Assembly (NCBI GenBank): GCA_022446825.1
Contig: JAKVBY010000027.1
Location: 1-49,445, forward strand
DNA length: 49,445 bases
DNA from: Pirellulaceae bacterium
GTDB lineage: Bacteria > Planctomycetota > Planctomycetia > Pirellulales > Pirellulaceae
Reading direction: 5' to 3'
Shown: one piece after another, positions 6,667 through 45,798 of the stretch
How the letters are laid out: each line of letters begins with the position of its first letter
Numbering within the stretch: the stretch's first letter is position 1
Notes under the pieces: generated by a model
What the model saw: only the letters and a program-made list of their open reading frames with translations
Told to the model about the DNA's origin: nothing
Database searches by the model: none
Made by a program: the position numbers and the translations under genes

Positions 6667-6683
6667 GGTTTTTATCAAGAAGG

Positions 6684-8267
6684 TTAATTTTGGATGGTGC
6701 GCAACAGAACTTGCAGGCCAAAAACTTCCTCTACGAGTGAGGCGTTCTGAGTAACTTCGAGTTGTTCCAGTGACAAGTCTTCGATATTAGGAATGGCGAT
6801 CAACAATCGACCTTTTTCAATCGAACATTGTACTTCGTGAATGCGTTGACTGCGCGAGGTGTCGAGTGCCACGGCGATCCGCAAAATGGCGGCAAGTTTT
6901 GAAACCGTGACGCGTTCTTCTCGGGAGAGCCGTGAATATCCATCGTGGCGGGGTTGAGGTGATGCCCGGCGATGATAACGAGCGACGAGGGCAACCAGCA
7001 GCAGATTACGCTGGCCGAGCCCGAAAAGCTCACTATTTTGAATCAAATACATCGAGTGCTTATGCCTGCTGCGCATGCTGATGTAGTTGCCAATTTCATG
7101 TAACAAGGCGGCCACGTGGAGAATTAACTCAAAGTGCGCATCCAGCTGATGCTCTTCCTGTAGTTGACTAAAAAGAGATTTCGCCAGCATGGCTACATGC
7201 TTGGCGTGGTTTTCGTCGAAATCGAATTTGCGACCAAGATCAATTGTAGATCGCAGGACTTGTTTGCTGAACTCCTCCATCCAGGCGTGTTGGGCGGCAA
7301 AATTTTGTAGCAATCCATCGCGTAAATTCGTATCGGTTACAACTAGATTGGTGAGTCCGACTGCTTGGGCTAACTGCACGTATGCTAGCAGCGCCGGGCC
7401 GACCGTCTCGGCATCTGCAAAGCTTAAATGGAACCGACGCACAATTTCATCGACGCTTAAAGCAAGCAATTCGTCGGTGAGTTTTTCAAGTGCCGTCACG
7501 GGTATGCGTGCCAGACTGGAGGTGTCCCAATCGGGAATCAGCTGACGAGTGGCAAAGCGAATATCTCCACCCAGAGCAATCATTTCAAGTTGTCCGGCTG
7601 GAATAATGTCATGTCGAAACTCTTCGATGGTCCGCTCGATTTGCCCTTCCATGATTCCACGCTGTTTGGACTCGGGAGCCCGATATCTTTCCAGCGTTTG
7701 TTTTAGTCGCAAGGCTCCCAGTCGATATGTTTGGGCAAAAACGACATCGCCGCGTTTGACAACCAGGATTTCGGTGCTGCCGCCGCCCACTTCGATTACG
7801 ATGGTTTGGGAAGATAGGAGGGAGGGCTCTGATTCAAGAAACGGTCGGATTCCCAGGTAGGTGAAGCCGTTTACTTCAGCTTCCTCGAGTGGCTCGACTT
7901 CGATGCCTGTGGCGATAAAAACTCGATCTAGAAAAGCCAATCGATTACGTGCTTCGCGGACCGCGCTCGTAGCAATGACGCGAATGTGCTCTGGGTCGTC
8001 GATACCGTACTCTTCGAGTTTTTGACGATAAACTTTTAACACGCGGACACAGTCTTCGATGGTGCTCTTTTTAATCTGGCCCGACGTAAAAGTATCTTTG
8101 CCGAGATTCACGGTTTGCGAGAGGGTGTCCAGTGTCCGCACGTTCCCGTCGGGGTCGATTTCGGCGATGGCCATACGGATGGATGTCGTGCCGATATCGA
8201 TCACAGCGACCGGTGCCGATCCATGTTTTGCTGTGACTTCACATAATTCGTCAGGTAAGGTCGCCAT
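6684..8267 (-). CDS. ppx: Exopolyphosphatase / guanosine pentaphosphatase family with C-terminal HD-type domain
   Basis: Ppx/GppA enzymes release terminal phosphate from polyphosphate or convert pppGpp to ppGpp. The 527-residue protein has the ASKHA fold: phosphate-1 motif AVIDIGTTSIRMAI (21-34), the phosphate-2 motif VIEVGGGSTEILV near 155, and a Gly-rich adenosine-type motif, MIALGGDIRFA. The C-terminal third has an HD-like helical domain (LLHEIGNYIS, then HKHSMYLI), as in long Ppx proteins. It sits between the ROK kinase (53 bases upstream) and ppk. Polyphosphate hydrolysis is the likelier role given ppk next door. No ribosome-binding site is visible. Confidence 0.93.
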   Translation of the reverse strand: MATLPDELCEVTAKHGSAPVAVIDIGTTSIRMAIAEIDPDGNVRTLDTLSQTVNLGKDTFTSGQIKKSTIEDCVRVLKVYRQKLEEYGIDDPEHIRVIATSAVREARNRLAFLDRVFIATGIEVEPLEEAEVNGFTYLGIRPFLESEPSLLSSQTIVIEVGGGSTEILVVKRGDVVFAQTYRLGALRLKQTLERYRAPESKQRGIMEGQIERTIEEFRHDIIPAGQLEMIALGGDIRFATRQLIPDWDTSSLARIPVTALEKLTDELLALSVDEIVRRFHLSFADAETVGPALLAYVQLAQAVGLTNLVVTDTNLRDGLLQNFAAQHAWMEEFSKQVLRSTIDLGRKFDFDENHAKHVAMLAKSLFSQLQEEHQLDAHFELILHVAALLHEIGNYISMRSRHKHSMYLIQNSELFGLGQRNLLLVALVARYHRRASPQPRHDGYSRLSREERVTVSKLAAILRIAVALDTSRSQRIHEVQCSIEKGRLLIAIPNIEDLSLEQLEVTQNASLVEEVFGLQVLLRTIQN

Positions 8268-11287: not shown

Positions 11288-12130
11288 TTAAGCCGCGGCG
11301 CGTGAAGGCTTAGCGGCGGTTCGTATGAGTTGTGTTGCTAATTGTTCGACGGCTCTGGAAACGGCGCCTGGGATTTGAGAATGTTCTAGAGGATCACCGA
11401 AACGGTTGCTGTCTTGTAGAGAGCCGTCCGTAGGGACGTGACCAAGCTGTTCGAGGTGAACCCCGAGGAATCGCTGGCAGGAATGATCAAGGCGACGGTG
11501 AATATCTTGGTGTTCCGCGGAGGTGACTGTTTTGTTCACTACACTACGGATACGAATTTTGTGGTCCGTCGAATTGGCGATGGCTTTGACCGTTGCATAA
11601 GCGTCCATTACAGAAACTGGTTCCGTGGTTGTAATTAAGATTGCCTCATCCGCATGAGGCCAAAAGTGACGTAGCATCTCGCTTGCACCGCAGCCAGCGT
11701 CGACAAGCACGATATCGGCGTGTCGCCCGAGGGCAAGGCATTGACTGATGAGGCGAGATTGCTCCTGTTCTGTGAATCCTGCTTGTTGGCTCGACGCCCA
11801 GCAACCAGGGACGATCAACATTCCTGCTGGTCCAGGTTGTAGCGCTTCGTGGATATTCTTTTGAGATTTCATGACGTCGGCGATCGTGACACCCTCGGAC
11901 AATCCACACAGAGTCGCGACATCGGACGACCTCAGGTCTGCATCGATCAGCACAACTCGCTGACCGAGATCACTGAGCGCAATACCTAAATTGACCGAAA
12001 TCGTGGTTGCTCCGACTCCTCCCTTTCCTCCGGCGACCAGTAGTATTCGCGGAGAGGGACCCAGCGTCGCCGCGCGGGTGCGGGTGGCTTGGAAAACCAA
12101 GTTGCGCAATTCGGTAGCTTGATCACGCAT
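11288..12130 (-). CDS. flhG: FlhG/FleN-type MinD-like ATPase controlling flagellar number
   Basis: FlhG (FleN, YlxH) is a membrane-associated ParA/MinD ATPase that restrains flagellar number and works with FlhF. The 280-residue protein has the deviant Walker A GGKGGVGATT (34-43) after a short N-terminal helix, with MRDQATELRNLVFQA resembling the FlhF-activating leader. It has RVVLIDADLRSSDVATL for switch I, and DIVLVDAGCGAS for Walker B. Its start lies inside flhF (8-bp overlap, 12123-12130), indicating translational coupling. The C-terminus is Ala/Arg-rich rather than a clear amphipathic MTS helix. Confidence 0.92.
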   Translation of the reverse strand: MRDQATELRNLVFQATRTRAATLGPSPRILLVAGGKGGVGATTISVNLGIALSDLGQRVVLIDADLRSSDVATLCGLSEGVTIADVMKSQKNIHEALQPGPAGMLIVPGCWASSQQAGFTEQEQSRLISQCLALGRHADIVLVDAGCGASEMLRHFWPHADEAILITTTEPVSVMDAYATVKAIANSTDHKIRIRSVVNKTVTSAEHQDIHRRLDHSCQRFLGVHLEQLGHVPTDGSLQDSNRFGDPLEHSQIPGAVSRAVEQLATQLIRTAAKPSRAAA

Positions 12131-13292
12131 GATGTTCCATCCCTAAAACAGTACGGGCCAATTTTCGTTGGTCTGCCGGTTCAATGTCATCCGGCACGTT
12201 TTGTCCATTCGTGACGTAACTTAGAGGTAGGCGGCATGCGCGAAGTAATGGAATAAGATTTCCCAGACCAGTTGCTTCGTCGAGTTTAGTGAATAACAGG
12301 GACGTGATTCCAACTTGAGAAAAGTGCTCGGCAGTTTTTTTCAAGCTTGCCGTTCCGGCCACACTACTTAAGACTAAATGAACTTCGTCAGCTTGGGCTA
12401 CGGACAAGAGAGATCTCAGCTCTTCGATTTTCACTTTATCGCGGGGACTTCGGCCCGCAGTATCCATCAAAACTAGATCAAAATCTGCGAGCCGTTCTAC
12501 CGCACCACGCATTTCGTGTGGGGTTGAAACGACTTCCATCGGAAGGTCAATAATATCGGCATAGGTTTTTAATTGCTCGACTGCGGCGATGCGGTAGGTG
12601 TCGACTGTGATCAGGCCGACCCGTTTTTTTTCTCGTAGATGATAATTGGCCGCCAGTTTTGCGATGGTGGTTGTTTTGCCGACACCAGTTGGTCCGACCA
12701 GAGCTACTAGGCGTCGGCTATTGGTGGTGAGTTGTATCGGCCCCGTTGTAGAAATTTCATTTTCCAGCAGATGAGCAATGCGATCTTTGATACAGGCAGC
12801 ATCATCCAAAGGTGAATATTCATGACTGCTTAGCACGCGGTCGATGAACTCTCGTGTTAACTCTTCGCTGACTTCAGCGTCGATTAAGTCGGTGAAGAGA
12901 TGAAATAAGGTGTCTGGTAATTCGCGTAGTGGTGTTAATGGACTTTGTTGACTCATTTCGGAGATCATTGACGGACAATCGCCATTGGTTTTTAGGGCAT
13001 TACGAAACTGCGTACGAAAATCCTGCTGGTGTGCGGGTTGAATTCTGTGGGGGGAGGCGTGCGGTGTGGCGAAGTCTCTCGACCGAGTTGTGCTCGCATA
13101 AGTAGGGAGCCGCCTGGGGACTTTGACCCCGGCAGACGCAGTGACTTCAATTTCCGGAATACCGCCAAAAAGACCGAGTAAACGCGGTTTGATTTCCTTT
13201 GTGTGAAGTACCGCTGCATCGGGGCCTAATTGTGTGCGAATGGCACGCAATGCGTCCTGAAGACTTTTAGCTCGAAACGTTTTAACTTCCAT
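12123..13292 (-). CDS. flhF: Flagellar biosynthesis SRP-family GTPase FlhF
   Basis: FlhF is a GTPase related to Ffh and FtsY that marks the site of new flagella. The 389 residues have the typical basic head MEVKTFRAKSLQDALRAIR..LGPDAAVL, a variable linker to about residue 120, an N-domain, and the G-domain: G1 GPTGVGKTT (200-208), VDTYRIAAVEQL, LVLMDTAGRSPRDK (G3) and TKLDEATGLG (G4). It lies 47 bases after flhA and overlaps flhG by 8 bp, so the three genes form one unit. Confidence 0.95.
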   Translation of the reverse strand: MEVKTFRAKSLQDALRAIRTQLGPDAAVLHTKEIKPRLLGLFGGIPEIEVTASAGVKVPRRLPTYASTTRSRDFATPHASPHRIQPAHQQDFRTQFRNALKTNGDCPSMISEMSQQSPLTPLRELPDTLFHLFTDLIDAEVSEELTREFIDRVLSSHEYSPLDDAACIKDRIAHLLENEISTTGPIQLTTNSRRLVALVGPTGVGKTTTIAKLAANYHLREKKRVGLITVDTYRIAAVEQLKTYADIIDLPMEVVSTPHEMRGAVERLADFDLVLMDTAGRSPRDKVKIEELRSLLSVAQADEVHLVLSSVAGTASLKKTAEHFSQVGITSLLFTKLDEATGLGNLIPLLRACRLPLSYVTNGQNVPDDIEPADQRKLARTVLGMEHHA

Positions 13293-13339
13293 GTTAATTT
13301 CCTTCTTCCAACCTCAAGGTTGAGGAAGTGGCTGATTTG

Positions 13340-15412
13340 TTATCCCGTGTTGGCATCCGTGACAATGCCAACCGATTTGATTTCTGTGTCGCGTGTTACC
13401 TCGCTGAAACTCAGGACGACGAGCTGTGGCAAAATGTTTGAAGTAATTTGCTTGAGTCCAGGACGAGTCTGTGGGCTGACAAGGATCACCGGAGTTTTTT
13501 TAGCTTTTACGAGGTTTTCTACTTGGTTGGTAATTAAATCACAAACGCTTTCGATGGCGGCAGGTGCCATGCGAATATGAAGACGATGGTCACTATGCTC
13601 GATCCCCGAATTGATGCGGTCTTCGAAGGCGGGATCGAGTGTTACTACATGCAGTTGTTTTTTCTCATCACGATATTTGGTACAGATCGTACGCGCCAGA
13701 CGGTGTCGCACATGTTCTGTCAGCCAAATCGGATCTTGTGTGTGCGGGGCGTAGTCTCCCAATGTTTCCAGGATGAGCGCCAGTTGCCGAATGGGTATCT
13801 CTTCGCGTAACAGTGATTGTAAAACGACTTGAACTTCACCTAATTTGAGAACTTTAGGAATTAGTTCATCGACCACCATTGGTGATTCTGTTTTTAACTC
13901 TTTCAGTAGATGATTTGTCGCATCTCGTGAGAGAAGTTCATCCGCATGCCGTTGAACAATTTCTTGCAGATGCCTTGCGAGAACGTCTGTCGGTGGAATG
14001 ATGTGGTAGCCTAACTCTTTGGCCTGGTCGCGACCTTCGTGATCAATCCAGACTGCCGGTTGACCGAAACTAGGATCGGCCATCGGTTGACCAGCGATTG
14101 TTTGATGGCTGGCAGCGGTTTCCAGTGCCAATAAACGATCGGATCGAATTTTGCCGCGTGCGACGGCGTTGTCAGAGATCTTGATGCGATATTCGTTGAC
14201 GCCCAGGTCCATGTTGTCGCGGATGCGCACTCTGGGTAACACAATACCAATATCGGCAGCCACGGTTTCGCGAACACGAGTGATTTGTGGCAACAATTTA
14301 CCTCCACGGCTTTCGTCGGCGAAGCGTAGTAAATCAATGCCCAGTTCTAGTTCCATGGGATCCACTGTGAGCAGATCCTCGACGCGCGTCTCGCGCGTTG
14401 GGACAGCCGGCACTTGTTCCTGGGCCTGTGCTGCTATTTGTGACTGTTCAGACGATTTTTGACGGGAAATCACAAATGCCAAACTCCCACAACCGGTGCC
14501 CAAGGTTAGCAGGGGAAGTGTTGGTAGATTGGTGAACACGAGGATGATGAGGAAACCAGCTGCGATGGCAAGTGCTGGTGGACGCGAGAAAAGTTGTTCG
14601 AGAAATTGTTTAGGAAGATTCTCCGATTGCATGCTTCGAGTCACGAGCAGGCCGGTCGCGAGGGAAATTAAAAACGCAGGTATTTGGCTCGCGAGACCGT
14701 CGCCGATAGTTAACTTCGTAAATAGTGCTGTGGCTTCCCCGAGAGCCATTCCTGACTGAATAACGCCGACAAACAACCCCCCCATGATGTTGATGAAGGT
14801 AATCGCAATACCAGCGATTGCGTCCCCACGAACAAATTTACTGGCTCCATCCATGGACCCATAAAAGTCTGCTTGGCGACCGATTTCTTGACGGCGACGT
14901 TGTGCGGTTTTCTCATCGATCAAACCAGCATTCAAATCGGCATCGATGGCCATTTGCCGGCCTGGCATCCCATCGAGTGCAAACCGAGCCGCGACTTCGC
15001 TGATTCTAGTTGCCCCTTTAGTAATGACGACGAATTGTATGAGCACGATGATGAGAAAAATAATGAGTCCAATCACAACTTCGCCACCTGTGACAAATTC
15101 GCCAAAGGCGCGAATGACTTGGCCAGATGCTGAGAGTCCATCTCTGGGTGCGTTGTTGAGGATGAGACGCGTGGTTGCTACGTTCAAGACGAGACGTCCG
15201 AGTGTTGTAGCTAACAACAAGGAGGGGAAAACGCTGAACTCAAGAGGAGTTCGTACGTAGATCGTGGTCAGCAAGACAATCAGGGCAATGGTGATGTTTG
15301 TCGCCAATAAAACATCAATCAGCGGTGCCGGGAGTGGAACGAGAATCACCAGGACACAGGCGATGATCCCAACCGGCAATAGCAGATCTTGCCAACGAGC
15401 AATCGGAGACAT
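13340..15412 (-). CDS. flhA: Flagellar export gate protein FlhA
   Basis: FlhA is the main membrane component of the flagellar type III export gate. The 690-residue protein has about eight transmembrane helices in its first 320 residues. It carries the FHIPEP-family signature (VFPSLLLATTLGRLVLNVAT and nearby TTRLILN) and the cytoplasmic loop FALDGMPGRQMAIDADLNAG. A cytoplasmic C-terminal domain follows after a charged linker with LTVDPMELELGIDLL. Length and order match the family. It is the first gene of the minus-strand flagellar unit; the 495-base gap before it would hold the promoter. Confidence 0.96.
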   Translation of the reverse strand: MSPIARWQDLLLPVGIIACVLVILVPLPAPLIDVLLATNITIALIVLLTTIYVRTPLEFSVFPSLLLATTLGRLVLNVATTRLILNNAPRDGLSASGQVIRAFGEFVTGGEVVIGLIIFLIIVLIQFVVITKGATRISEVAARFALDGMPGRQMAIDADLNAGLIDEKTAQRRRQEIGRQADFYGSMDGASKFVRGDAIAGIAITFINIMGGLFVGVIQSGMALGEATALFTKLTIGDGLASQIPAFLISLATGLLVTRSMQSENLPKQFLEQLFSRPPALAIAAGFLIILVFTNLPTLPLLTLGTGCGSLAFVISRQKSSEQSQIAAQAQEQVPAVPTRETRVEDLLTVDPMELELGIDLLRFADESRGGKLLPQITRVRETVAADIGIVLPRVRIRDNMDLGVNEYRIKISDNAVARGKIRSDRLLALETAASHQTIAGQPMADPSFGQPAVWIDHEGRDQAKELGYHIIPPTDVLARHLQEIVQRHADELLSRDATNHLLKELKTESPMVVDELIPKVLKLGEVQVVLQSLLREEIPIRQLALILETLGDYAPHTQDPIWLTEHVRHRLARTICTKYRDEKKQLHVVTLDPAFEDRINSGIEHSDHRLHIRMAPAAIESVCDLITNQVENLVKAKKTPVILVSPQTRPGLKQITSNILPQLVVLSFSEVTRDTEIKSVGIVTDANTG

Positions 15413-15907
15413 GAGCGAAGGGCAAGCTACGACAGCGAAAATGTCGCTGCGTGCGTGCGTGAAGTTTGTTTGAAAGTAAAAAGAAGTTACGTCGTAGAGA
15501 TGAGGGGCGGAGACTACTCAAAGCGCGAAAGAGCGTCTAGATCGTTTTGCCGTAGAGCAGAGCTTGCTTTATAAGCGGTAATATTGGCCTGAATCGACGT
15601 CCGGCGAACATCTTACCAGCGATTATTTCTCTACTTTAATTGAGTCGCTCGGCGGTACATTACCCTCCGCGGAACAATACGTGAAAACTCTCCGGAGGAG
15701 TTTTGATTTTACCGAAGGATCGATTTAACCTTAGGTATGTGCGGGGGAGAATGTGCTAGCAGCACACGCCGCACAAAGGCCGGGAAAAGGGGAGCGTCAA
15801 GATACTCCAGTTAACAAGCAACAAAAGATACAGTGTTTTGGTTGCTCCGAGCCGATATTGCATAGAATCACCATCCCGTTTCGTTTTGAGATCCGATTTA
15901 GTTCGTC
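15413..15907. promoter_or_regulatory. Divergent intergenic region between flhA and the sulfotransferase gene
   Basis: This gap must hold promoters for both directions, but no clear sigma-70, sigma-54 or sigma-28 boxes were recognised. The main structure is a hairpin or dyad at 15684-15704: AAAACTC, a seven-base TCCGGAG core, GAGTTTT. It is followed on the plus strand by GATTTT, so it may instead act as a weak terminator. Confidence 0.35.
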
Positions 15908-17071
15908 ATGTCTGACCAAAAACCAACGTCATCGCAAAAGACCAAGCCGTTAAAAACAAATCCGTACCCATTTTGGTCGCCACGGTTTTGGCACGGTATG
16001 ACACCTTGGGATTGGTATCGTTTGGTTTGGCACGGTGGATGTCGAATTCATCCCTTTCGAATGCCTCTGGCATTCATGTTGTGTTTATTGTCACCGGCGA
16101 CACTGTTGTTGAAGTGGCTCCAAAAAATCAGACATGGAAGAGCCATTGCTGCCACTGAAATTAATCCAGAGATCGTGTTTATTCTGGGGCACTGGCGCAG
16201 TGGCACCACGTTGTTACATGAATTGCTAGCACTGGACGATCGGTTTGCCTATTCGAATACGTTTGAATGCTGTGCACCACATCATTTTATTGTTTCCCAA
16301 TGGTTCTTTGAAAAGTTTGGTGCGTTCTTACTTCCCAAGAGACGTCCGATGGATAATATGTCTGCCGGTTGGCTTCGGCCGCAGGAGGACGAATTTGCAC
16401 TTTTGGCTCTGGGTGCGCCAACCCCCTATCGACGTATGGCATTTCCCAATCGCTCGCCGGTCGATGCGGAGTTTTTAAATATGGAGGGCCTTTCGGAGGA
16501 GCGTCTGCAGCAGTGGAAAGATGCTTTCCAAGGTTTTCTTCGCACGTTGTCTTATCGGTACCCCGGCAAGCGTTTAATTCTCAAGTCTCCACCGCATACG
16601 GGCCGGATCGGTCTGTTGCGAGAGATGTTTCCCGCTGCTCGGTTTGTGCACATAACACGAGATCCGCACACGATTTTTGCCTCGACTTGCCGTTTATGGA
16701 AATCGCTCGATGATGCACAGGCACTGCAAGTTCCGCGGAATAAGCACCTGAGAGAACTGGTTTTTGATTCGTTTGAGCGGATGTATGACGGGTTTGAACG
16801 CCACCGTCATGCGGTCGACGAGTCACACATTTGTGACATTCGCTATGCAGACCTTGTCGCAGATCCACTCCAGGTCGTGGCCGAAATTTATGACAAACTG
16901 AATCTTGGTGATTTTTCTCCGGCACGTCCTAAGTTGGAAGCGTATGTGGCCGAACAGCGTGACTATAAAACGAATGTGCACCAAGTCGATCCGGAGACGG
17001 CTGCCGAAGTGAGCCGCCGGTGGAGCGGGTATTTTAAAAAGTATGGTTACGTCGACGCCGCTGAAAGTTAG
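15908..17071 (+). CDS. Sulfotransferase family protein
   Basis: The 387-residue protein is a PAPS-dependent sulfotransferase of the Sulfotransfer_3 type, moving a sulfuryl group onto an unknown acceptor. The 5'-phosphosulfate loop is GHWRSGTT (94-101), and the 3'-phosphate site is FVHITRDPHTIFAS (247-260), with Arg251 and Ser259. An acceptor-side motif, LILKSPPHTGRI, lies between them. A hydrophobic stretch around 52-70 may anchor it to a membrane. The first 40 residues are aromatic- and basic-rich. It is a lone plus-strand gene, divergent from flhA. Planctomycetes carry many such enzymes and many sulfatases; acceptors are mostly unknown. No ribosome-binding site is visible. Confidence 0.88.
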   Translation: MSDQKPTSSQKTKPLKTNPYPFWSPRFWHGMTPWDWYRLVWHGGCRIHPFRMPLAFMLCLLSPATLLLKWLQKIRHGRAIAATEINPEIVFILGHWRSGTTLLHELLALDDRFAYSNTFECCAPHHFIVSQWFFEKFGAFLLPKRRPMDNMSAGWLRPQEDEFALLALGAPTPYRRMAFPNRSPVDAEFLNMEGLSEERLQQWKDAFQGFLRTLSYRYPGKRLILKSPPHTGRIGLLREMFPAARFVHITRDPHTIFASTCRLWKSLDDAQALQVPRNKHLRELVFDSFERMYDGFERHRHAVDESHICDIRYADLVADPLQVVAEIYDKLNLGDFSPARPKLEAYVAEQRDYKTNVHQVDPETAAEVSRRWSGYFKKYGYVDAAES

Positions 17072-35179: not shown

Positions 35180-38100
35180 TTAAGGAATTGGTTCAAGATA
35201 AATTGTTCTCAAATCGATCATGGCTGACTTGATGACGCCGGCAGATTGCATCAGGAGTTCAACGGTACCGGCGGGCAATTGTATTTCACCAATTTCTTTT
35301 TGGGTGTAATCGTCCCAACTACCGGTTCCGATGACCGTATCGAGAAGTTTTTCTTCCCCAACGCTGAGTGTGAAGTGGTCTCCCGCCGCTGAGTTGTCAC
35401 TAGCGTAGTCGAAGATAACTCGGTAGGTGCCACTTTGCGGAACCACCAGAGTCCAGATCGCATGATCGGTGGGGTCGCTCCAGTAGCCCAGGTTTTTATA
35501 GTGTTGCTCGAAAACCAAACGTGGTCCGTAGATTCTGCAATCGGCGGCGCTGAGTTCCAGAACGCCGTCGGTTCCCGCCCTGATGACTTTCGGTTCATTG
35601 CCCGGGAAGCTTTTGGGGGGCGTGCCGAGTTCTTGAAGATAAGCAATCAGATCAGCAATATCTTGGGACCGAAGATCTTTTTCCATTCCTTCTGGCATCA
35701 GCGATTTTCCAGAGGTTCGTAATTCTTCGATCTCTTCACGTAGGAGCGTTTGTTCTTTGCCTTCTGGACCTTGCAGAGAGATGCTATTGCTTGTTTCTCT
35801 TGCCAGCATCCCCGTAACTTGGCGTCCATCCTCTGTTACTGCGACGTAGTCGAGAAACTTATTTTCGACTGCTCGGTTTGGATCGAGGATGGCGATCAGT
35901 AAGGCATGAGAGGAGCGATCTTTGATGGCAGACAAGTCGGGGCCAACTGCGTGTCCCATGCCAGCGACTCGATGGCAGTTACTACAGCGTTTTGTGAAGG
36001 TTGCTTGCCCCCGTTTGGGAACGCCTGTGATTTGAGTCGCTTCTTGGTATTCCTCCAGGACCTTTTGACGATTGGGGTGTATCATGTTTCTGAAGAGTTC
36101 TTCTGCACCTTGACGCACAACTTGGTCTTCATGCTGTAACAACAAAGTCTGCCGACGAGCATCAATTGGCAACGCAGAAATCGTTGACGTTTTCAGAGCT
36201 TGGAGGAGTTCGCGGGTGAGGCCCGGTCGGCTTAGAAAAAGATCAAGAATCGTCCCTCGTAGCACTGGAGAGTATGTTGGCCAGTTACGGAGTAACTGTT
36301 TGGCTGTGTGTGCATAGTTTGTGCCTCCCAAGGTGACGATGGTGCTGGCAGCCAAACCTTGGATCTCGGGAACTTCGCGAGGGGACAATAAGGGTGTAAA
36401 AACGGTCAAATCATCGGTGGCAGTGGTTAGGCCGCAACTCAAAAAACGCAGCGTCTGCAGGCGATCTGAAAGTGTGGCGGATGCGTCTAGTGCTACATGG
36501 ATGGCGTGGTCATGCAGAGCGGAAATGCGTTCACGCAGCGATTCGTTGATAACGTTCTCGATTGGTATATTGCCGGCCCGCAGGGCGCGAACCAGCGTCG
36601 TTGCGGTATTCATGGCGTGGCTTCGTGAGTTGGGATCGTCGCTGGTGACGATCCGCTCAAAGACTGGCGCGACGCTGGTCGGTCCCTTCAAGGCCACCGC
36701 GGCAGTCACGACTTGTTCCAGAGCTTGTAGCGAAGCTTGTGGTGTGTTGAGGAGAGGAAAGGCAGCAGTGTTTGAATCGTGCTTTCTTTCTAATAGCGAC
36801 AAAAGTACGTGTTCCACGTTTGCTTGGTTGAGTGAACTCAGGGCGGCGCTGCGCAAATACGGATGTTGTCGGTAATGTTCGAGGGTGGCCGCAAGAAAAC
36901 GGCCTATTTTACCTTGGACGTGCTGGTGTGATTTCCAGTGGCCAAAGGTGAGCAGCGCTTGCAGCAAAACCACGGGTTCGGATTCGACGCTCTTCGACGC
37001 GGCTTCTAAGACAGCCAGAGTCAAGGCTTCGTTCTCTGGGAATCTCGCCGCGATTCGAATGGCATGTTTGCGCACTCCAGCATGTACATCTTTTACCGCC
37101 AGAGTGACAAGCGCCGGATCCACGGTGTTTAATCCGTCGAGCGTACAGAGTGCGTGCAATCGTGCGGTCGCTCGTTTGCCAGTCTTTACGACCAAGGCCA
37201 ACTCGTCGGTGACACTTTCCTCGCCACGCCAGATAAGTATCTGTTGCACCATGTCTCGCAACCAACCATTGGGACTTTCCAACAGTTGAACAAGTTGTTT
37301 TGGCGAGAGTTTGTCTAATTGCGGGAGCTTGGGTGGTTGCAGATCTGCGCGATAAACGCGGTAGATGCGGCCTCGATTGCTACCTGCACGCATGTCCAAG
37401 ATGTTCTGTAAGTCAGGAGGAATCCATTCGGGATGCTCAATCACAAATCGATAGATGTCGGCAATCCATAAAGCGCCGTCGGGGCCGGTACGGATCATCG
37501 TAGGGCGGAACCAATTGTCTGTCGAAGAAAGGAATTCGCTTTGTTGTTCTTCTTCTGCCCGCCGGCTGGTAAACGAAATTCCTGCTGGCGAGACGATTTC
37601 ACGGTGCACGAGATTATGCACCGGTTCACAGACAAAAGCATTACCAGCGAACATCTCGCCGAGAAATTCATCGCGGTAAATCGTCGGACTGCAAGCGGAT
37701 GTGAAGCGATTGAGCCCGTTGGGATCGTTGAAGCGAGTTTGTGTGATACTCGTCGGGAAGACTGTGGCAGCGTTGGGTTGTACTGAAACGTTCTGGCGAA
37801 GGTTGGGAGGTACGACAAAGGGATTGCGTCTCAAATAGCGGTCTTCAAGAACATAATGCCACATAGGATTCGAGTTGTTGCCACCGAACCAATTGCCCCA
37901 GTCGTCACGATTACGACCAAACTGTGTTTGACCAGATAAGGCTTCAAGGGTTCCGTTGTCAGGACGAATCCGTAAATCACGCCCACCGATTTCTACGGTT
38001 TCCTCGGTTTGGAGTGAGCGGATCGTCCCACCGCTATCGCCATTCGCTAGATGGAGCCAATTGTCGAGACCCCAACGCAACCCATTCATGCGGTGTTGTT

Positions 38101-40393
38101 GGTTACCTTCCCCGAATCCTTGATAGAGAGTCTGGCGCTGATCGGCTTGGCCGTCCCCGTCGGAATCTTCCGCATAAAAAACTTCGGGGGCCGCAGAGAT
38201 CAAAACTCCTTTTCGCCATACTTTGATGCCAGTGGGAAAGGGAATCTTATCGAGAAACAGGGAAGCTTTGTCGTAACGTCCATCTCCATCGGTATCGGTG
38301 AGAATCTTGATCCGACCTCCCGCCTCACCGCGACGATCGTTGGGGTGATTCCAAGTCAGCCCGTTCGGATAGTCGTGCATTTCGACGACCCACAAGCGGC
38401 CATCGGTTCCCCAATCAAAGGCAATGGGGTCTGCGACTAATGGTTCCGCTGCGACCAAATCCACTTTAAGGTCCGGGTGTGTTTGAATGGTGGCCAGAGA
38501 CTTCTCTGGCGACAAGGGAGCGGGTTGCGGCGTTTCTTTAACGCCGAGCGTGGAACTTTGCGCCAACATGTTTCGAAACGATTGCCGCTCGACCAAATCG
38601 GGCAGGCGATTGGTATCTTCATTTTGGAGCCAGAGTTGACCGGAGTGAAACCAAGCACCGTTATTACTGCCATCTGGTCGGACGATGGGAGGTAGTGTCA
38701 AGCGATCCTCGCTGTCCGTCGTTTGCCTACGGACTTTGCTGATCACTTCTGTTGACCAGCCAACCTGCATGTTATGGAATAGGTGTAAAGAGTATTGTTC
38801 TCCATTGGAGAAGAGGCAGTCGTCAAAGCCATCCTGATCGACATCCACGAAACGTAGCCCTGCATCTCCACCCTCAGAGGTAAACCGGACTGCGCCTGGA
38901 GGTAGTGTAAAGGGCAGTGGCTCCCAAACACGGTCGTCGTGTTGGCTGAAAATGAGCGATTGCTGATCTGCTTCAACAAAGAATTCCGATTGCCCGTCGT
39001 TATTCAGGTCTCGAAAGAAATAGCCGCTGAGCGACTCAGCAAGCTCGAGCCGCGCACTCCATGCGGCGTGCGTTGCCGGTAGCTGGAATCGCATGGGGTG
39101 GCGTTTCCATTTGCTGTCCTCGTAAGTGCGTAAAACAAAAGTTCCGCTCGCTTCGATTTCTAGAAAAGAGGGCATGTTGTTCTCTGCCGTGAAACCAAAA
39201 CGAGGTTTCTGGAATTCAAATGATTGTTTTGAGACGCGCCAGGTGTTTTCTGCAGGTACCCAAATCCTGGTACTGACCTGTTTGTCGCCATCTGCCGTCA
39301 TTACGTCAAGAAAACCATCCCCATTGATATCAAATAATTGAGCTTGCTCATTCTTGTCGCCGCTGCTGCGGAGCGGCTGGTTGTCGAGCAAGTTGTGGTT
39401 GATTCGCGTAATGGCTTCACGGAAATTGAGAAACTTGATTTTGGACCCATGTTTTTGCACCGCGTGATCGATTAAATCAATAATCTGCTCACTGCGGATC
39501 CAGCCGTGGGGATGAAAAACCAAATTGTAAACGCCTTGTTTGATGACTGTCGCGTCCAACGCAGCTTTTAGATCTTCCAGAGTGCGGGGATTATTTGGCT
39601 GCTGTAAATTTTGCCCCTCCCAGTCACTGGGGATGACACAGGGGAATTGCCAGCACTGCTGAGCAACGACGTAGGGGTAAGGGTAATTTTCAATCCAATT
39701 TACAAAGGCAGGGAAGGGAATATATTTTCGAAAACGGTCCCGGCCATTCGTGTCGCGGACGAGGTGGAGGGGAAGATCTTTGTCCTGGGCAGTGAAGAGG
39801 TGGAAAACAGAACTGTCAATGGCGAGATAATTCCCCGCGTCAGTTCGTCGATTGAAAATCTCGGTGAAGAATCTTGGGCTGGGTGTATTCAACGAGTCAC
39901 AGCAAGGCATGCGAAATGCGACGGGCTGGTTGTTAGGGATTTCGCCAAGCAAATCCACGCAGCGGTCATAAGTGCTTTTGGAACGCGCCAGGTCTCCGTC
40001 CGCGAGGAGAGGACAAGGGTGATCGATCGTATGGACTTCTATAGAGAGCCCCTCTTCTAGCCATGCCTGCAACTGCGGATCTTGTGGATCGACACTGTTG
40101 GTCATAATACTCACAGGCGCACGCCCATCGATTTGTTTTAAACGTTCCAGGATCGGTCGCAAGTAGCGCTCGTAGATGGCAGGATCTCGCATGTCGTCAA
40201 TGGCCAGCACAACGACAGTTTCCACGCCTTCTTCACCGACCCATTGGGGAGTTGTAAGTTTGGGGAAATCGAGATCGACATAGTATGGATTGCATGGCAT
40301 ATCCAAATGTGCGAGTCGATTTCCTTCGGCAGCCGAGAGTGTAGAACTCAGCAACGTGAGCAGGACGCAAAGCCAGTAAGATTGAAAGGTCAT
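35180..40393 (-). CDS. Giant secreted fusion: NodB-like deacetylase, FG-GAP, PVC-type haem dehydrogenase propeller, HEAT, cytochrome c, sugar-binding-like tail
   Basis: The chain has 1,737 residues from the ATG at 40393, chosen because a signal peptide (YWLCVLLTLLSSTLSAAEG) follows; the frame opens at 40474. A polysaccharide-deacetylase-like domain (about 40-350) has VLAIDDMRDP (Asp66/67) and HTIDHP (His121, His125), the metal triad. FG-GAP-like repeats (DINGDGFLDVM, DLNNDGQSEFF, DVDQDGFDD) span about 355-620. A beta-propeller of the planctomycete membrane-bound-dehydrogenase type runs from 634 to about 1011. HEAT repeats extend to about 1440. CSNCH (Cys1470, Cys1473, His1474) marks a c-type cytochrome, and from about 1610 a beta-sandwich resembles a carbohydrate-binding module. 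The last four modules are common together in planctomycetes; the deacetylase and FG-GAP front is unusual. Confidence 0.85.
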   Translation of the reverse strand: MTFQSYWLCVLLTLLSSTLSAAEGNRLAHLDMPCNPYYVDLDFPKLTTPQWVGEEGVETVVVLAIDDMRDPAIYERYLRPILERLKQIDGRAPVSIMTNSVDPQDPQLQAWLEEGLSIEVHTIDHPCPLLADGDLARSKSTYDRCVDLLGEIPNNQPVAFRMPCCDSLNTPSPRFFTEIFNRRTDAGNYLAIDSSVFHLFTAQDKDLPLHLVRDTNGRDRFRKYIPFPAFVNWIENYPYPYVVAQQCWQFPCVIPSDWEGQNLQQPNNPRTLEDLKAALDATVIKQGVYNLVFHPHGWIRSEQIIDLIDHAVQKHGSKIKFLNFREAITRINHNLLDNQPLRSSGDKNEQAQLFDINGDGFLDVMTADGDKQVSTRIWVPAENTWRVSKQSFEFQKPRFGFTAENNMPSFLEIEASGTFVLRTYEDSKWKRHPMRFQLPATHAAWSARLELAESLSGYFFRDLNNDGQSEFFVEADQQSLIFSQHDDRVWEPLPFTLPPGAVRFTSEGGDAGLRFVDVDQDGFDDCLFSNGEQYSLHLFHNMQVGWSTEVISKVRRQTTDSEDRLTLPPIVRPDGSNNGAWFHSGQLWLQNEDTNRLPDLVERQSFRNMLAQSSTLGVKETPQPAPLSPEKSLATIQTHPDLKVDLVAAEPLVADPIAFDWGTDGRLWVVEMHDYPNGLTWNHPNDRRGEAGGRIKILTDTDGDGRYDKASLFLDKIPFPTGIKVWRKGVLISAAPEVFYAEDSDGDGQADQRQTLYQGFGEGNQQHRMNGLRWGLDNWLHLANGDSGGTIRSLQTEETVEIGGRDLRIRPDNGTLEALSGQTQFGRNRDDWGNWFGGNNSNPMWHYVLEDRYLRRNPFVVPPNLRQNVSVQPNAATVFPTSITQTRFNDPNGLNRFTSACSPTIYRDEFLGEMFAGNAFVCEPVHNLVHREIVSPAGISFTSRRAEEEQQSEFLSSTDNWFRPTMIRTGPDGALWIADIYRFVIEHPEWIPPDLQNILDMRAGSNRGRIYRVYRADLQPPKLPQLDKLSPKQLVQLLESPNGWLRDMVQQILIWRGEESVTDELALVVKTGKRATARLHALCTLDGLNTVDPALVTLAVKDVHAGVRKHAIRIAARFPENEALTLAVLEAASKSVESEPVVLLQALLTFGHWKSHQHVQGKIGRFLAATLEHYRQHPYLRSAALSSLNQANVEHVLLSLLERKHDSNTAAFPLLNTPQASLQALEQVVTAAVALKGPTSVAPVFERIVTSDDPNSRSHAMNTATTLVRALRAGNIPIENVINESLRERISALHDHAIHVALDASATLSDRLQTLRFLSCGLTTATDDLTVFTPLLSPREVPEIQGLAASTIVTLGGTNYAHTAKQLLRNWPTYSPVLRGTILDLFLSRPGLTRELLQALKTSTISALPIDARRQTLLLQHEDQVVRQGAEELFRNMIHPNRQKVLEEYQEATQITGVPKRGQATFTKRCSNCHRVAGMGHAVGPDLSAIKDRSSHALLIAILDPNRAVENKFLDYVAVTEDGRQVTGMLARETSNSISLQGPEGKEQTLLREEIEELRTSGKSLMPEGMEKDLRSQDIADLIAYLQELGTPPKSFPGNEPKVIRAGTDGVLELSAADCRIYGPRLVFEQHYKNLGYWSDPTDHAIWTLVVPQSGTYRVIFDYASDNSAAGDHFTLSVGEEKLLDTVIGTGSWDDYTQKEIGEIQLPAGTVELLMQSAGVIKSAMIDLRTIYLEPIP

Positions 40394-41217
40394 AGGATAC
40401 TTACGTGGTGGATGGGCTGGGATTGGCAGGAAATACAGATTCCTAGCATGATAGCATTTGTTCCGAGTGAGCACATTTCAAAATCTAAAAGTTCTTGTGC
40501 CGCAAGATCCTGTCGATCTGTTTTGGGGACTCTTGTTGATGTTCCCGCGGCCTGAGCTTGAATGGATTGTTGGTTGGCGTTGGAACTGGAATTGATGTCA
40601 ACCTGACACGGGGGTAAACGGCGCACTGCCTGTGCCTGATGGACGTGCGAGTTGACGAGCTGTTGGGTGGAAGGAAGTTGTCTGCAGGAATTCACTGGGC
40701 TGTGAATCTTCGGGCGGTCTGAGAAACGAGTAAGCGGGAGGTGTTTGTGGCGGTGTCGCTGATGTGGCGGCGTCTCGTCGCCCGAACGTCCTGGCATCAA
40801 CGGTCCTTGGCATCCCAGATCTCTAGCGTCTCATCATAAATTCCACTGGTAATTTTTCGACCAGCGGGACTAAACGTGACACGATTAATCCGCCAGCATG
40901 TCCTGTGAGTGACTGCAGCAGCTTTGGATCGCTCGCTGGGACGTTACCCTCCTGGACCTCTTTCTTGCACCTCAGACTCTGAAAGATTAGCCTCTAGAAC
41001 ATCCCTTATGGCAACCGTATTCAAGGCATCCGTTTGCTGGTCAGATTCGTTGCCACCACAACCCTATCGTATCGCTACCACCAAAACCACTGTTCGATAT
41101 TTCATGGCCTTCCCCACATGTTGATGCGCAACTGTGTCTGTTAAGGGAAGCGTACGTTGCTTGGCATTTTTGGCTTTACGCTTATGCACGTGGCCCAGAA
41201 TATAGAGCCCTTACCGG
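40394..41217. other. Gene-poor region holding a decayed lipoprotein/WD40 gene
   Basis: No intact gene. The upper part contains the pseudogene annotated separately (40797-41105). Below it, minus frames between 40813 and 40394 are open but Pro/Ser/Gln-rich and broken, and may be further decayed remains of the same gene. Confidence 0.6.
40797..41105 (-). pseudogene. Decayed lipoprotein with WD40 repeat
   Basis: Reading one minus frame from the ATG at 41105, which follows GGGGAAGG, gives a hydrophobic leader MKYRTVVLVVAIR. A TAG stop (41066-41064) comes next, immediately before GCGGNESDQQTDALN, which looks like a lipobox and mature N-terminus. A second stop, TAA, lies at 40946-40944. The same frame then resumes with a recognisable WD40 blade, INRVTFSPAGRKITSG and IYDETLEIWDAKDR, and ends at 40797. 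Two in-frame stops inside a gene with clear start, lipobox and WD40 motif indicate a dead gene, probably also shortened by a deletion. The original product was probably a surface WD40-repeat lipoprotein. Confidence 0.7.
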
Positions 41218-42681
41218 TCAGGCCAGAATCTCACGCACTACTTTTCCATGGACATCCGTGAGGCGGAAATCACGACCTTGATGACGGAAGGTCAGGCGTT
41301 CGTGGTTCACCCCGAGTTGATCGAGGATGGTTGCATTCAAATCGTGAATATGAACCGGGTTTTCGATGACGTTGTAACTAAAATCATCCGTTTCGCCATA
41401 GACAATGCCGCCTTGAATTCCAGCGCCGGCCATCCATTTGGTGTAACAGCGTGGATGGTGGTCACGGCCATAGTTGGTTTTGGTTAATCCCCCCTGGCAA
41501 TAGATCGTCCGGCCAAATTCACCTCCCCAGATCACCAAGGTATCTTCCAAGAGTCCGCGCTGCTTGAGATCTTGGATCAACGCGTAGCACGGCTGGTCGA
41601 TAATCCCACATTGGCGGCGAATGTCTGTCGGGAGATTTCCGTGTTGGTCCCATTGCCGGATGAATACCTGGGTAAAGCGGACACCGCGTTCAGCCAAACG
41701 CCGCGCTAAAAGGCAGTTGGCGGCGAACGTGCCGGGCTTTTTGACCTCCTCACCGTACAGATCGAGTGTCGCTTGAGACTCATCAGAAATGTCGGTCAGT
41801 TCGGGAACTGAGGTTTGCATGCGGTAGGCCATTTCGTATTGCGCAATGCGGGATTGAATCTCCGGATCCCCCACGGCGTTGTAGCGATCGTTGTTTAAAA
41901 GGCTTAACTCGTCCAGCATGCGGCGCCGCATTTTTTCCGACATGCCGTCTGGATTGGAGAGATAGAGTACGGGGTCGCCAGTGGAGCGCAAGCTGACACC
42001 TTGGTGCCGCGTTGATAAAAATCCCGCTCCCCATAATCGTGAATAAAGGGCTTGCCCACCGAAATTGCCGCCGACCGTCGAGTGCAGGACCACGAAAGCA
42101 GGCAAATTCTGATTCATCGTTCCGAGACCGTAGGACATCCAGGCGCCAGTACTTGGTCTGCCAGGCAATTGGCTGCCAGTTTGGATGTAGGTGATCGCGG
42201 GGTCGTGGTTAATGGCTTCTGTGTTGATTGTTTTAATCACGGCCAATTCATCGACCATCTTGGCGGTGTGGGGTAGGAGTTCGCTCACCCATGCACCGTT
42301 TGAACCATGCTGCTTGAACTTGAAGGTCGATGGGGCGATGGGAAACCGTGCTTGGCCTGAGGTCATTGTGGTGATGCGTTGACCGTTGCGGACCGAATCG
42401 GGCAATTCTTTGTCGAACCAATCGTTCATCTTGGGCTTATAATCCCACATGTCTAATTGGGATGGCGCACCCGACATGAAGAGATAGATCACCCGTTTGG
42501 CTTTAGGCGCGAAGTGTGGAACTCCAGCGATCCCGCCGATCCTTGCTTCGTCGGTTGATTTAGCAGCGAAAAGGTCGGGGTTGACGAGGGATGCTAAGGC
42601 GACAGAGCCGATCCCGGTGGAGGCGCGGGAAAAAAAATGACGTCGTGTTTCCACGAGTGCTGATTCACGAACCGGATTCAT
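41218..42681 (-). CDS. DUF1501 family protein, paired with the DUF1549/DUF1553 gene
   Basis: The 487-residue protein has a twin-arginine leader ([16 protein letters not shown]) and the DUF1501 landmarks: [59 protein letters not shown], and [27 protein letters not shown] just before the ATG is a good ribosome-binding site. It starts 15 bases after the stop of the DUF1549/DUF1553 gene, the standard planctomycete pair. The fold is alkaline-phosphatase-like; the reaction is not established, but export and pairing suggest a role outside the cytoplasm. Confidence 0.93.
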
Positions 42682-42696
42682 AGGGAGCCTACCTTC

Positions 42697-45600
42697 TTAT
42701 TCCTTTGTAACAGTTTCGCTCAGATTCAAGAGCAAGTGAGTGATCATAGTCCAGGCAGCTAATTCGTTGGTATTGAGTTGGTCGTCACGAGGAGATTCAC
42801 CGGAGGACAATAATTTGGTGGCCGCTTCGGTGGCTGTGGCAAACTCACTCGCATACTCGTTGAACGCCTTGTTTAACGCTTGCCGTTCGAAGTCGTTGGG
42901 GTGTCGCGTCAGGATGGAACGGAAGGCAAACTCGATTTGATCCTGCACGTTCGTCCCCCCTTCTTTCATGACACGTTCGGCAAATTTCCTTGCTGCTTCG
43001 ACAAATTGAACATCATTCATGAGGACCAGTGCTTGAAGCGGCGTATTCGTACGTGCTCGGCGCACTTGGCACGTTTCGCGGTCCGGCGCGTCAAAGGTGG
43101 CCATGGACGGTGGAGGAACTGTGCGTTTCCAGAAGGTGTACATACTGCGTCGATAGAGTTTGTCGCCTTTATCCTGCACAAAGACAGATGTGTTACTACC
43201 ACCAAATCCAACCGGTTTCCAAAGGCCAGCCGGCTGGTACGGTTTGACACTTTTTCCGCCAATTGTTTCAATCAGCAATCCACTCACGGCAAGTGCCTGA
43301 TCGCGAATGACTTCTGCATCTAATCGAAACCTTGGGCCGCGGGCAAATAAACGGTTTTCCGGGTCCTTCGCCAGCTTTTCTGGTGTGACGCGGGACGATT
43401 GTTGATAGGTGGCGGACATTACAATTTGCTTGAGAAATCGTTTGATGTTCCAGCCGGAATCGACAAAGTCAACGGCCAGCCAATCAAGTAACTCTGGATG
43501 CGATGGCTGTTCTCCTTGCACGCCAAAGTCTTCGGACGTTCGCACCAAGCCAATCCCGAAAAACTGCTGCCAATAACGGTTGACGGTTACACGTGATGTT
43601 AGTGGATGCTGGGGCTGGACCAGCCATTGCGCGAGTCCAAGTCGATTTTTCGGAGCACCTTCGATCGGCGGTGCAATCCACAGGGGGACGGAAGATTCGA
43701 CGGGATCCCGCGGGAGCGTGTATTCTCCACGTTCCAGGATGTGCGCCTGTCGGGCTTCTTTACGGTCCTCCATTACTAGCGTTGCTGGAATGGCCTTTTC
43801 CAGATCTTCCAGTTGTTTTTGTAGCGTTGCTTCTTTTTCAAGTGGTGTGGCCAATTGGGCACTGGAATCGGGGTGCACATGTTGAAGAAAATAACGCGTT
43901 AATTGTTGAGTTTGGTCAGCGGATCTTTGTTCTCGATCCACCTTGAGTATTTTCTCAATGGCGTCCGGAGTTTTGGTTGCCTTACCACTCTTTTGAAACT
44001 GCTCCCAGGCGAACAAAGAACGCTTTTGCTCCTCCGAAAGCAGATGCGTAATGATCCCTGCAGTATCCCAGTGCACCGTTCCTTTGACCTGGGTAAACGC
44101 CCAGCCATTCAATTCTGCACCGGGTTTTAGTCCGACGTGGTCGGCACTCACCTCGAGTCGGACCCATTTGCCCGTTTCCGGTAATTCGCCGATGAGGCGA
44201 TTTGATGCATTTTGGCGTCCTGCACCGAATGCTTTGTCTGCACCCCAGGAGGCTCGGTGCTCCCATGTACCGTCATTGAATTGTAGTTGAATCGTCTCTG
44301 GTGGATTGTCGGGGTCGAGATACACGTAAGCGAACAGCCGCGCGTTTTCGTGGATTTTTAATTTGTCGGTGGCGTTGATGAAGTAATGTTGCGTGATGCC
44401 ATCTCCCTCGCCCGTTCGAACGGTGGAATTTTTCCCGCGATAAACTGGGTGATCGGGAGCCTCGACGAATTCCCAGGGAGTGTTTCCTTCAGGACTTGCT
44501 CCAGCAGGAAGCTCATCATCAAACCAAATGAATTCATCTTGGCTTAGAGCGCCCAAGGGTTCCGCGGGTTTTGGATCGGAGTAGGCGAACTCTGCGAGCA
44601 ACGTTTCAAGCTGTTGTCTCACGGCAGCAAGTTCTTCTGTAGTTTGTTGTTTCTGCGCAATCTGGATTTCTGTGGGGACTTTGACCGTGGGCGGTGGCAA
44701 TAAAGCGTTTCCGTCCATGGCTCGTTCCGTCAAGCTAAAAAAGTATGAGAAAAGCTGGTAGAACTCTTTTTGGCTAAGTGGATCAAACTTGTGGTCGTGA
44801 CAGGCGGCACAGCCAGCAGTCAGGCCGAGCCAAACGGTTGCAGTGGTTTCTACTCGATCGACGGCATAACGGACATAGTATTCATCGTCGATAGAACCAC
44901 CTTCACTGGTAGTTACGTTGCAGCGGTTAAATCCTGTTGCGACCCGTTGCTGTAAGGACGGCTGGGGCAGCAAATCACCCGCAAGTTGCTCAATCGTGAA
45001 GGCATCAAAAGGCTGATTTTTGTTAAACGCTTCGATCACCCAGTCTCGATAGGGCCAGATCGAACGTTCATTATCCAAGTGGAGCCCATGGGTGTCACCA
45101 TAGCGTGCAGCATCGAGCCAGAAACGCGCCATGTGTTCTCCATACTTCGTAGACTCCAGCAACCGATCCACCACGCGTTCGAAGGCTTGATTGGAACCGT
45201 CGTTCAGAAAGTCATCGATGTCTCGCACGCTCGGTGGCAGACCCGTCAGGTCCAGAGTTACACGACGGATTAAGGCGGCTTTGGAAGCCCGTGGTTCCGG
45301 AGAAAGATTGCGATTTTCCAAGGATGCTTGAATAAACTGGTCGATGGCATTGTGGACGAGCCAATGATCATGCGCTGCTGGTAGATGTTTTCGAGTTGGT
45401 GGTCGAAAGGCCCAGTGTCCCGACCAGTCTGCCCCACTGTCGATCCACTTTTGGAACAAACGAATTTGCTCCTCGGTGAGAGCCTTCCCTGAATCAACCG
45501 GCGGCATTTTCACATCGGGATCTTTTGAGGAGATGCGCTGAAACAGTTCACTCTGGGCACTATCTCCTGGTACTACAGCGACATGTCCTGATTCCAGCTC

Positions 45601-45798
45601 GGTTGTCGAATTCGGCTGTTGATCCAGACGCAAATCATTTGCGCGATTGGCCTCATCGGGTCCGTGGCATTGAAAGCAGTTGTTAGAAAGCAACGGTAGA
45701 ATATCGCGGCTGAAATCGATCGCCTGATCCTCAGCAATGAGAACCTGACTTGCGGAGATGGAAATGGCAACTGTCAAAATCGTTTGTCGAATTGTCAT
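42697..45798 (-). CDS. PSD1-type protein: planctomycete cytochrome c, DUF1549, lectin-like insert, DUF1553
   Basis: The 1,033-residue protein has a signal peptide ([18 protein letters not shown]), then a planctomycete cytochrome-c motif with Cys41, Cys44 and His45 ([12 protein letters not shown]). The DUF1549 domain follows (about 150-380), with [13 protein letters not shown] and the conserved end [20 protein letters not shown], itself a second CxxCH. A LamG/concanavalin-like insert lies around 440-600. The DUF1553 domain is near the C-terminus ([46 protein letters not shown]). The family is abundant in planctomycetes with unproven function, probably polymer breakdown or respiration-linked oxidation. 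It is the first gene of the pair. Confidence 0.93.

Follow-up and report, generated by a model that had tools for sequence, protein, structure and literature searches.

CE4/NodB deacetylases are defined by the motifs DD, H-x3-HP, R-x-P, D-W and a His, and CE4-like folds are also known among inactive proteins. The PVC-type heme-binding CxxCH proteins, which combine TIGR02604 and TIGR02603 and contain DUF7133, are often annotated as 'putative membrane-bound dehydrogenase'. They have no known function, and about 25 copies of this type, none of them carrying a NodB head, are found elsewhere in the genome studied here. The large PVC cytochromes PSCyt1/PSD1, found with DUF1501 and in some cases with carbohydrate-binding domains, have been described as proteins without an assigned function, in a paper whose main text does not contain the term 'polysaccharide deacetylase' (PMC5615132). 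Kustd1711 of Kuenenia (7zs0) is a small stand-alone diheme electron carrier in which M292 is the distal heme ligand (PMC11791136). The protein described here belongs to a different family from PSCyt1/PSD1, yet it shares with those systems the presence of c-type heme and sugar-binding modules in a large PVC protein. It resembles the CE4/NodB deacetylases PdaC (6h8l), SlCE4 (2cc0), insect chitin deacetylase (5zns) and the putative enzyme 3rxz in fold and catalytic residues, but its head is fused to an FG-GAP domain and a cytochrome chassis. Residues 628-1588 belong to the PVC-type CxxCH proteins; a NodB head, which the paralogs of its own genome lack, and a CBM35-like end have been added.

The gene is located in the window, that is, the whole 49,445-nucleotide stretch of Pirellulaceae DNA that was analysed (Table 1). 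A preliminary description, made from the sequence alone, had proposed a single modular chain of 1,737 residues; the frame is indeed uninterrupted, and we add that the gene lies on the minus strand. An alternative GTG start at 40474, 27 codons upstream of the ATG at 40393, would lengthen the protein. The N-terminal helix spans residues 2-20 in the AlphaFold model of the head, and the secretion-type N-terminus suggests that the protein is secreted, with the surface proposed in the preliminary description as a possible location. From the N to the C terminus, the modules are a NodB/CE4 head, an FG-GAP propeller-like domain, a DUF7133 propeller, HEAT repeats, a CxxCH cytochrome c and a CBM35-like domain, an assignment on which AlphaFold, Foldseek and profile searches agree. 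All modules named in the preliminary description were found, although the HEAT repeats and the sugar-binding end became clear only by profiles and structure.

Table 1. Features of the locus (positions are those of the window)
Feature	Residues	Positions	Strand	Evidence
Gene for 1,737-aa protein		40393 (ATG) to 35180 (stop)	minus	frame without internal stop
Signal-peptide-like N-terminus	1-22	40328..40393	minus	hydrophobic core, A-x-A-like end, read from translation
NodB/CE4 polysaccharide-deacetylase fold	45-336	39386..40261	minus	Pfam, PDB profile, model, Foldseek
CE4 motif 1	D66-D67	40193..40198	minus	invariant 79/79
CE4 motif 2, then P-C-P	H121-T-I-D-H125	40019..40033	minus	both His invariant 79/79
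CE4 motif 3, then invariant C-C-D-S	R161-M-P163	39905..39913	minus	invariant 79/79
CE4 motif 5 histidine	H294	39512..39514	minus	invariant 79/79
FG-GAP / integrin-type propeller-like domain	340-615	38549..39376	minus	PF13517, PDB profile, Foldseek
DUF7133 / TIGR02604 propeller	628-1016	37346..38512	minus	Pfam, NCBIfam, model strands, Foldseek
HEAT-repeat alpha solenoid	1025-1453	36035..37321	minus	PDB profile to HEAT designs, helical pairs in model, Foldseek
Mono-heme cytochrome c domain	1457-1588	35630..36025	minus	TIGR02603, PDB profile, fold
CSNCH heme-binding motif	1470-1474	35972..35986	minus	Cys, Cys, His invariant in 38 tails
Probable distal heme ligand	M1566	35696..35698	minus	invariant 38/38, aligns with Kustd1711 M292
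CBM35-like carbohydrate-binding domain	1600-1737	35183..35596	minus	profile and Foldseek
DUF1501 gene, upstream candidate partner		41218..42681	minus	PF07394, E 1e-157; order and strand shared by several relatives
PSCyt1-PSCyt2-PSD1 gene, upstream candidate partner		42697..45798	minus	PF07635, PF07583, PF07587

The preliminary description had read a metal-triad, deacetylase-like head from the letters and had named structure prediction as a check on it. The prediction gave a deacetylase fold in the first ~340 residues: the AlphaFold model (pLDDT 90.2, pTM 0.91) was matched by Foldseek to 3rxz, 5zns, 3qbu, 6h8l and 2cc0, the best being polysaccharide and chitin deacetylases, and Polysacc_deac_1 (PF01522) was found at residues 58-164 (E 2.4e-5) with a score above the Pfam cut-off. 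The same Pfam family was matched in 63 of 68 relatives scanned. A PDB search with the single head sequence returned no match, and a profile of the head alignment was needed to reach PdaC (6h8l). The active site is intact. The residues of the metal triad and the catalytic Asp (D66, D67, H121 and H125) are present in all 79 aligned heads, as are those of motifs 3-5 (R161, P163, the D257-W258 pair of the D-W motif, and H294), while P126 is kept in 78 of the 79. Separate motif checks placed HTIDH, CSNCH, H294 and M1566 at the positions given in Table 1. With fold and catalytic residues both present, the assignment of this head as a predicted deacetylase is well supported. Three cysteines beside the metal-binding motifs (C127, C164 and C165, in HPCP and RMPCCDS; window 38513-40393) are also invariant in the 79 heads; they fall outside the usual CE4 motifs and constitute a further difference from the CE4/NodB deacetylases.

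The FG-GAP-like repeats of the preliminary description correspond to an FG-GAP_3 match (PF13517, residues 462-527, E 2.7e-6) above the curated cut-off, a family also matched in 67 of 68 relatives; the PDB profile of this part matches CRTAC1 (9etn), and Foldseek gives propellers and lectins. The membrane-bound-dehydrogenase-type propeller was likewise recovered, as DUF7133 (PF23500, residues 628-1016, E 7e-164) and as TIGR02604 (residues 641-1014, E 8e-86, 288.7 bits against a curated cut-off of 122.2), with strands in this part of the AlphaFold model and a Foldseek match to the propeller 5d9b. Its similarity to sugar dehydrogenases is only faint. Apart from NHL-type teneurin repeats, the PDB sequence search with the propeller gave nothing but very weak matches to glucose dehydrogenases (2ism, E 0.58; 2g8s, E 0.92), and significant similarity to the PQQ-dependent glucose/sorbosone dehydrogenases was not found, a GSDH (PF07995) match being absent from this protein in the Pfam scan and weak in 3 of 32 relatives. 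Many propeller positions are invariant across the 38-member set of NodB-headed proteins. Among them is H767, which, judged by spacing, may be comparable to the catalytic His of sugar dehydrogenases; several related chassis have Leu or Ala instead.

For the remainder of the tail, a profile made from an alignment of 38 tails was searched against the PDB, and an AlphaFold model (pLDDT 87, pTM 0.74) was compared by Foldseek, which returned armadillo/HEAT proteins, the Kustd1711 cytochrome and CBM35. HEAT_2 is weak on the single sequence, whereas HEAT designs are matched clearly with the 38-tail profile. The single CxxCH cytochrome c of the preliminary description is confirmed by the CSNCH motif and by TIGR02603 at residues 1460-1588 (E 5.7e-36, 123.5 bits against a curated cut-off of 68.15 in NCBIfam), and Cytochrom_C in Pfam also exceeds its curated cut-off at residues 1460-1499, so that both propeller and heme domain score above the curated cut-offs that mark PVC-type heme-binding CxxCH proteins. 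The C-terminal heme domain of Kustd1711, with its beta insertion, matches residues ~1457-1588 both by the 38-tail profile (7zs0, E 8.7e-23) and by fold, including the distal Met. Because M1566, like the CxxCH residues, is the same in all 38 tails and aligns with the ligand M292, a His/Met-ligated electron-transfer heme is likely. The C-terminal domain shows both the fold and the sequence similarity of CBM35, with a profile match to 2vzp of the exo-chitosanase CsxA (E 8.7e-5) and Foldseek matches to 2vzp, 2w1w and 2w47 (target TM 0.78-0.80), at ~20% identity. This end is missing in the Verrucomicrobial members and in one Hydrogenedentota member. Foldseek matches of the tail to Cry toxins were dismissed as a chance pairing of a helical bundle with a beta domain, their rmsd being above 24.

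It could be argued that a sequencing or assembly error has joined two genes near residue 630, a possibility raised in the preliminary description, and the head does stand alone in some genomes. We regard this explanation as already refuted and give it virtually no credence. A contig scan for relatives of the head found 146, of which 80 were kept for analysis; 59 are fused to DUF7133, 19 are stand-alone and 2 run off the end of their contig. The same stop-free join thus recurs in 59 of 80 loci across Planctomycetota, Verrucomicrobiota and Hydrogenedentota, including the complete genome of cultured Singulisphaera acidiphila (L036). Nor did its view that a NodB head with FG-GAP is uncommon hold up. 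The head was matched in 43 of 394 planctomycete genomes (40 strongly, 3 weakly), for the most part in frames longer than 1,600 aa. Open frames of more than 1,100 aa account for almost all of the strong matches, and four others fall in frames of 640-700 aa; wherever the propeller search sampled the same genomes, DUF7133 came directly after the head. Since the head occurs, mostly in long frames, in about 10% of the sampled planctomycete genomes, the fusion is not rare. Conversely, in the phylum of one Verrucomicrobiota metagenome-assembled genome (L062) the head looks rare, for among 289 genomes it was found in the centre genome only, three faint matches being to FG-GAP alone. The proteins are already present in public genomes, and the literature searched, with partial coverage, yielded no description of the fusion; the broader planctomycete literature held nothing specific to it.

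The genes upstream encode candidate partners. Among the neighbours of the relatives, PSCyt genes recur most often (12 loci). The PSCyt-DUF1501 order of the window is repeated immediately upstream, in the same orientation and with 18-69 bases between genes, in L016, L021, L030 and L079 (Hydrogenedentota), whereas in L018/L019 one gene intervenes; the free-standing head of L077 shares 24 bases with a PSCyt frame. In the window itself, the gap between the DUF1501 gene and the NodB-headed gene exceeds 700 bp. Of the ~40 fused loci with sufficient flanking sequence, about 5 show the arrangement, and several of these belong to one clade; the full pair lies upstream on the same strand in 1 of 38 loci of other DUF7133 proteins (L126). 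The linkage is recurrent, though confined to a minority. In that one locus, which is in the same genome, a ThuA-F5/8-DUF7133-cytochrome gene (L126:3426-7274, minus strand) sits between PSCyt on one side and DUF1501 on the other, all in the same orientation. The gap between the DUF1501 gene and the target in the window contains a frameshifted WD40-repeat relic (40800-40920, minus strand), with LTGHAGGL in one frame and VTFSPAGRKITSGIYDETLEIWDAKDR in the next.

How the modules might work together can be outlined as follows. The protein would be exported by virtue of its N-terminus. A glycan would be gripped by the CBM35-like end, possibly with help from the FG-GAP domain, and the NodB/CE4 head would strip acetyl groups from it by means of a divalent metal held on D67, H121 and H125, with D66 as the base. 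The DUF7133 propeller, mounted on the HEAT scaffold, would then act on or sense the exposed product, and its electrons would be handed to the His/Met heme domain, which would deliver them either to partner PSCyt proteins or to a soluble carrier. We put at about even the chance that PVC bacteria have here a secreted, probably bifunctional redox protein that acts on carbohydrates; its tail may, as the preliminary description proposed, oxidise the same polymer that the head deacetylates. This proposal is supported by the invariant CE4 motifs, the fold of the head, the many fused loci, the CxxCH and M1566 of the heme, the CBM35 end and the exchange of heads on the chassis described below; the redox linkage in particular is supported by the PSCyt-DUF1501 genes upstream in L016, L021, L030, L079 and the window and by the overlap in L077. 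It is weakened by the faint likeness of DUF7133 to sugar dehydrogenases and the loss of H767 in the wider family, by the minority status of the PSCyt-DUF1501 linkage and the wide gap in the window, and by the absence of the CBM35 end from some members and the existence of inactive CE4-like folds. In another explanation, a deacetylase carries a non-catalytic tail, with the propeller and HEAT repeats serving as a scaffold and the heme only sensing redox state or docking the protein, and no polymer is oxidised. The lack of a close enzyme relative for DUF7133, the variable His767 and the tolerance of the chassis for many different heads would fit such a tail, but the many invariant propeller positions, as in a functional site, and the equally invariant heme ligands would not, and we consider it a serious though somewhat unlikely alternative.

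That tolerance became apparent in a search with the propeller only, which found close chassis in long frames without a NodB head. Their N-termini mostly match neutral/alkaline ceramidase (PF04734); chassis further removed have ThuA or an alpha/beta hydrolase there. The PF04734 matches are below the Pfam cut-off in L167, L173 and L177, which also carry a laminin-G-like domain, whereas L165, L168, L170 and L171, as well as L175 and L176 with their extra N-terminal domains, were called ceramidase-like solely by eye, all six from the same motif at the start of the sequence. The ceramidase-like heads sit on chassis 47-60% identical in the propeller to the NodB-headed type, and more distant DUF7133 paralogs in the own genome bear GDSL or ThuA heads. 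On a quick propeller tree, made without bootstrap, NodB and ceramidase-like heads are interleaved, and the NodB label changes 4 times, at least 3 of these changes being forced by well-supported branches, compared with 19.9 in shuffles. A single origin of the NodB fusion, apparent with few outgroups, was abandoned once ceramidase-headed chassis were added to the tree. L006 contains a free-standing NodB-FG-GAP gene (5844-7712, plus strand) and, 4 kb away, a ceramidase-headed DUF7133 chassis with a CBM35-like end (11792-16522, minus strand), whose propeller adjoins that of NodB-headed L029 on the tree; this arrangement suggests that one head has replaced another. The DUF7133-HEAT-cytochrome chassis is probably reusable for different hydrolase heads, NodB being one of at least four.

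Head and tail might also have different substrates and owe their fusion to nothing more than joint export or a shared place at the cell surface, as the 19 of 80 heads that stand alone and the sharing of the chassis with heads of unrelated fold would allow. Yet NodB propellers cluster strongly on the tree, with far fewer label changes than in shuffles, which indicates that head and chassis types are not freely mixed, and we find such a purely spatial fusion improbable. The replacement of NodB by ceramidase-like heads on near-relative chassis suggests that deacylation is a shared first step. A broader proposal, which we advance as speculative and rather doubtful, is that these proteins form a PVC class of modular, single-chain hydrolase-plus-redox proteins, in which interchangeable deacylase heads (NodB, ceramidase-like, GDSL) unmask a group that the propeller oxidises into the c-type heme. 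If true, it would provide a function for one of the largest unexplained planctomycete protein families, and would amount to a heme-wired breakdown of glycans distinct from the known hydrolase, lyase and LPMO systems. That a deacetylase whose active site is intact has been fused to this tail gives a chemical hint of the substrate, pointing to an acetylated glycan, and allows the question to be tested with one purified protein.

Further variation of the chassis was seen along the way. Near the NodB group, L162 (1437-6308, minus strand) encodes a headless chassis in which the CBM35-like end is followed by ~500 further residues. In the own genome, two DUF7133 paralogs with GDSL heads, each ~1,650 aa long (L116:3954-8930, plus strand; L124:1027-5976, minus strand), have a plastocyanin/azurin-like copper domain immediately ahead of the cytochrome c, which places copper and heme redox modules side by side in one chain.
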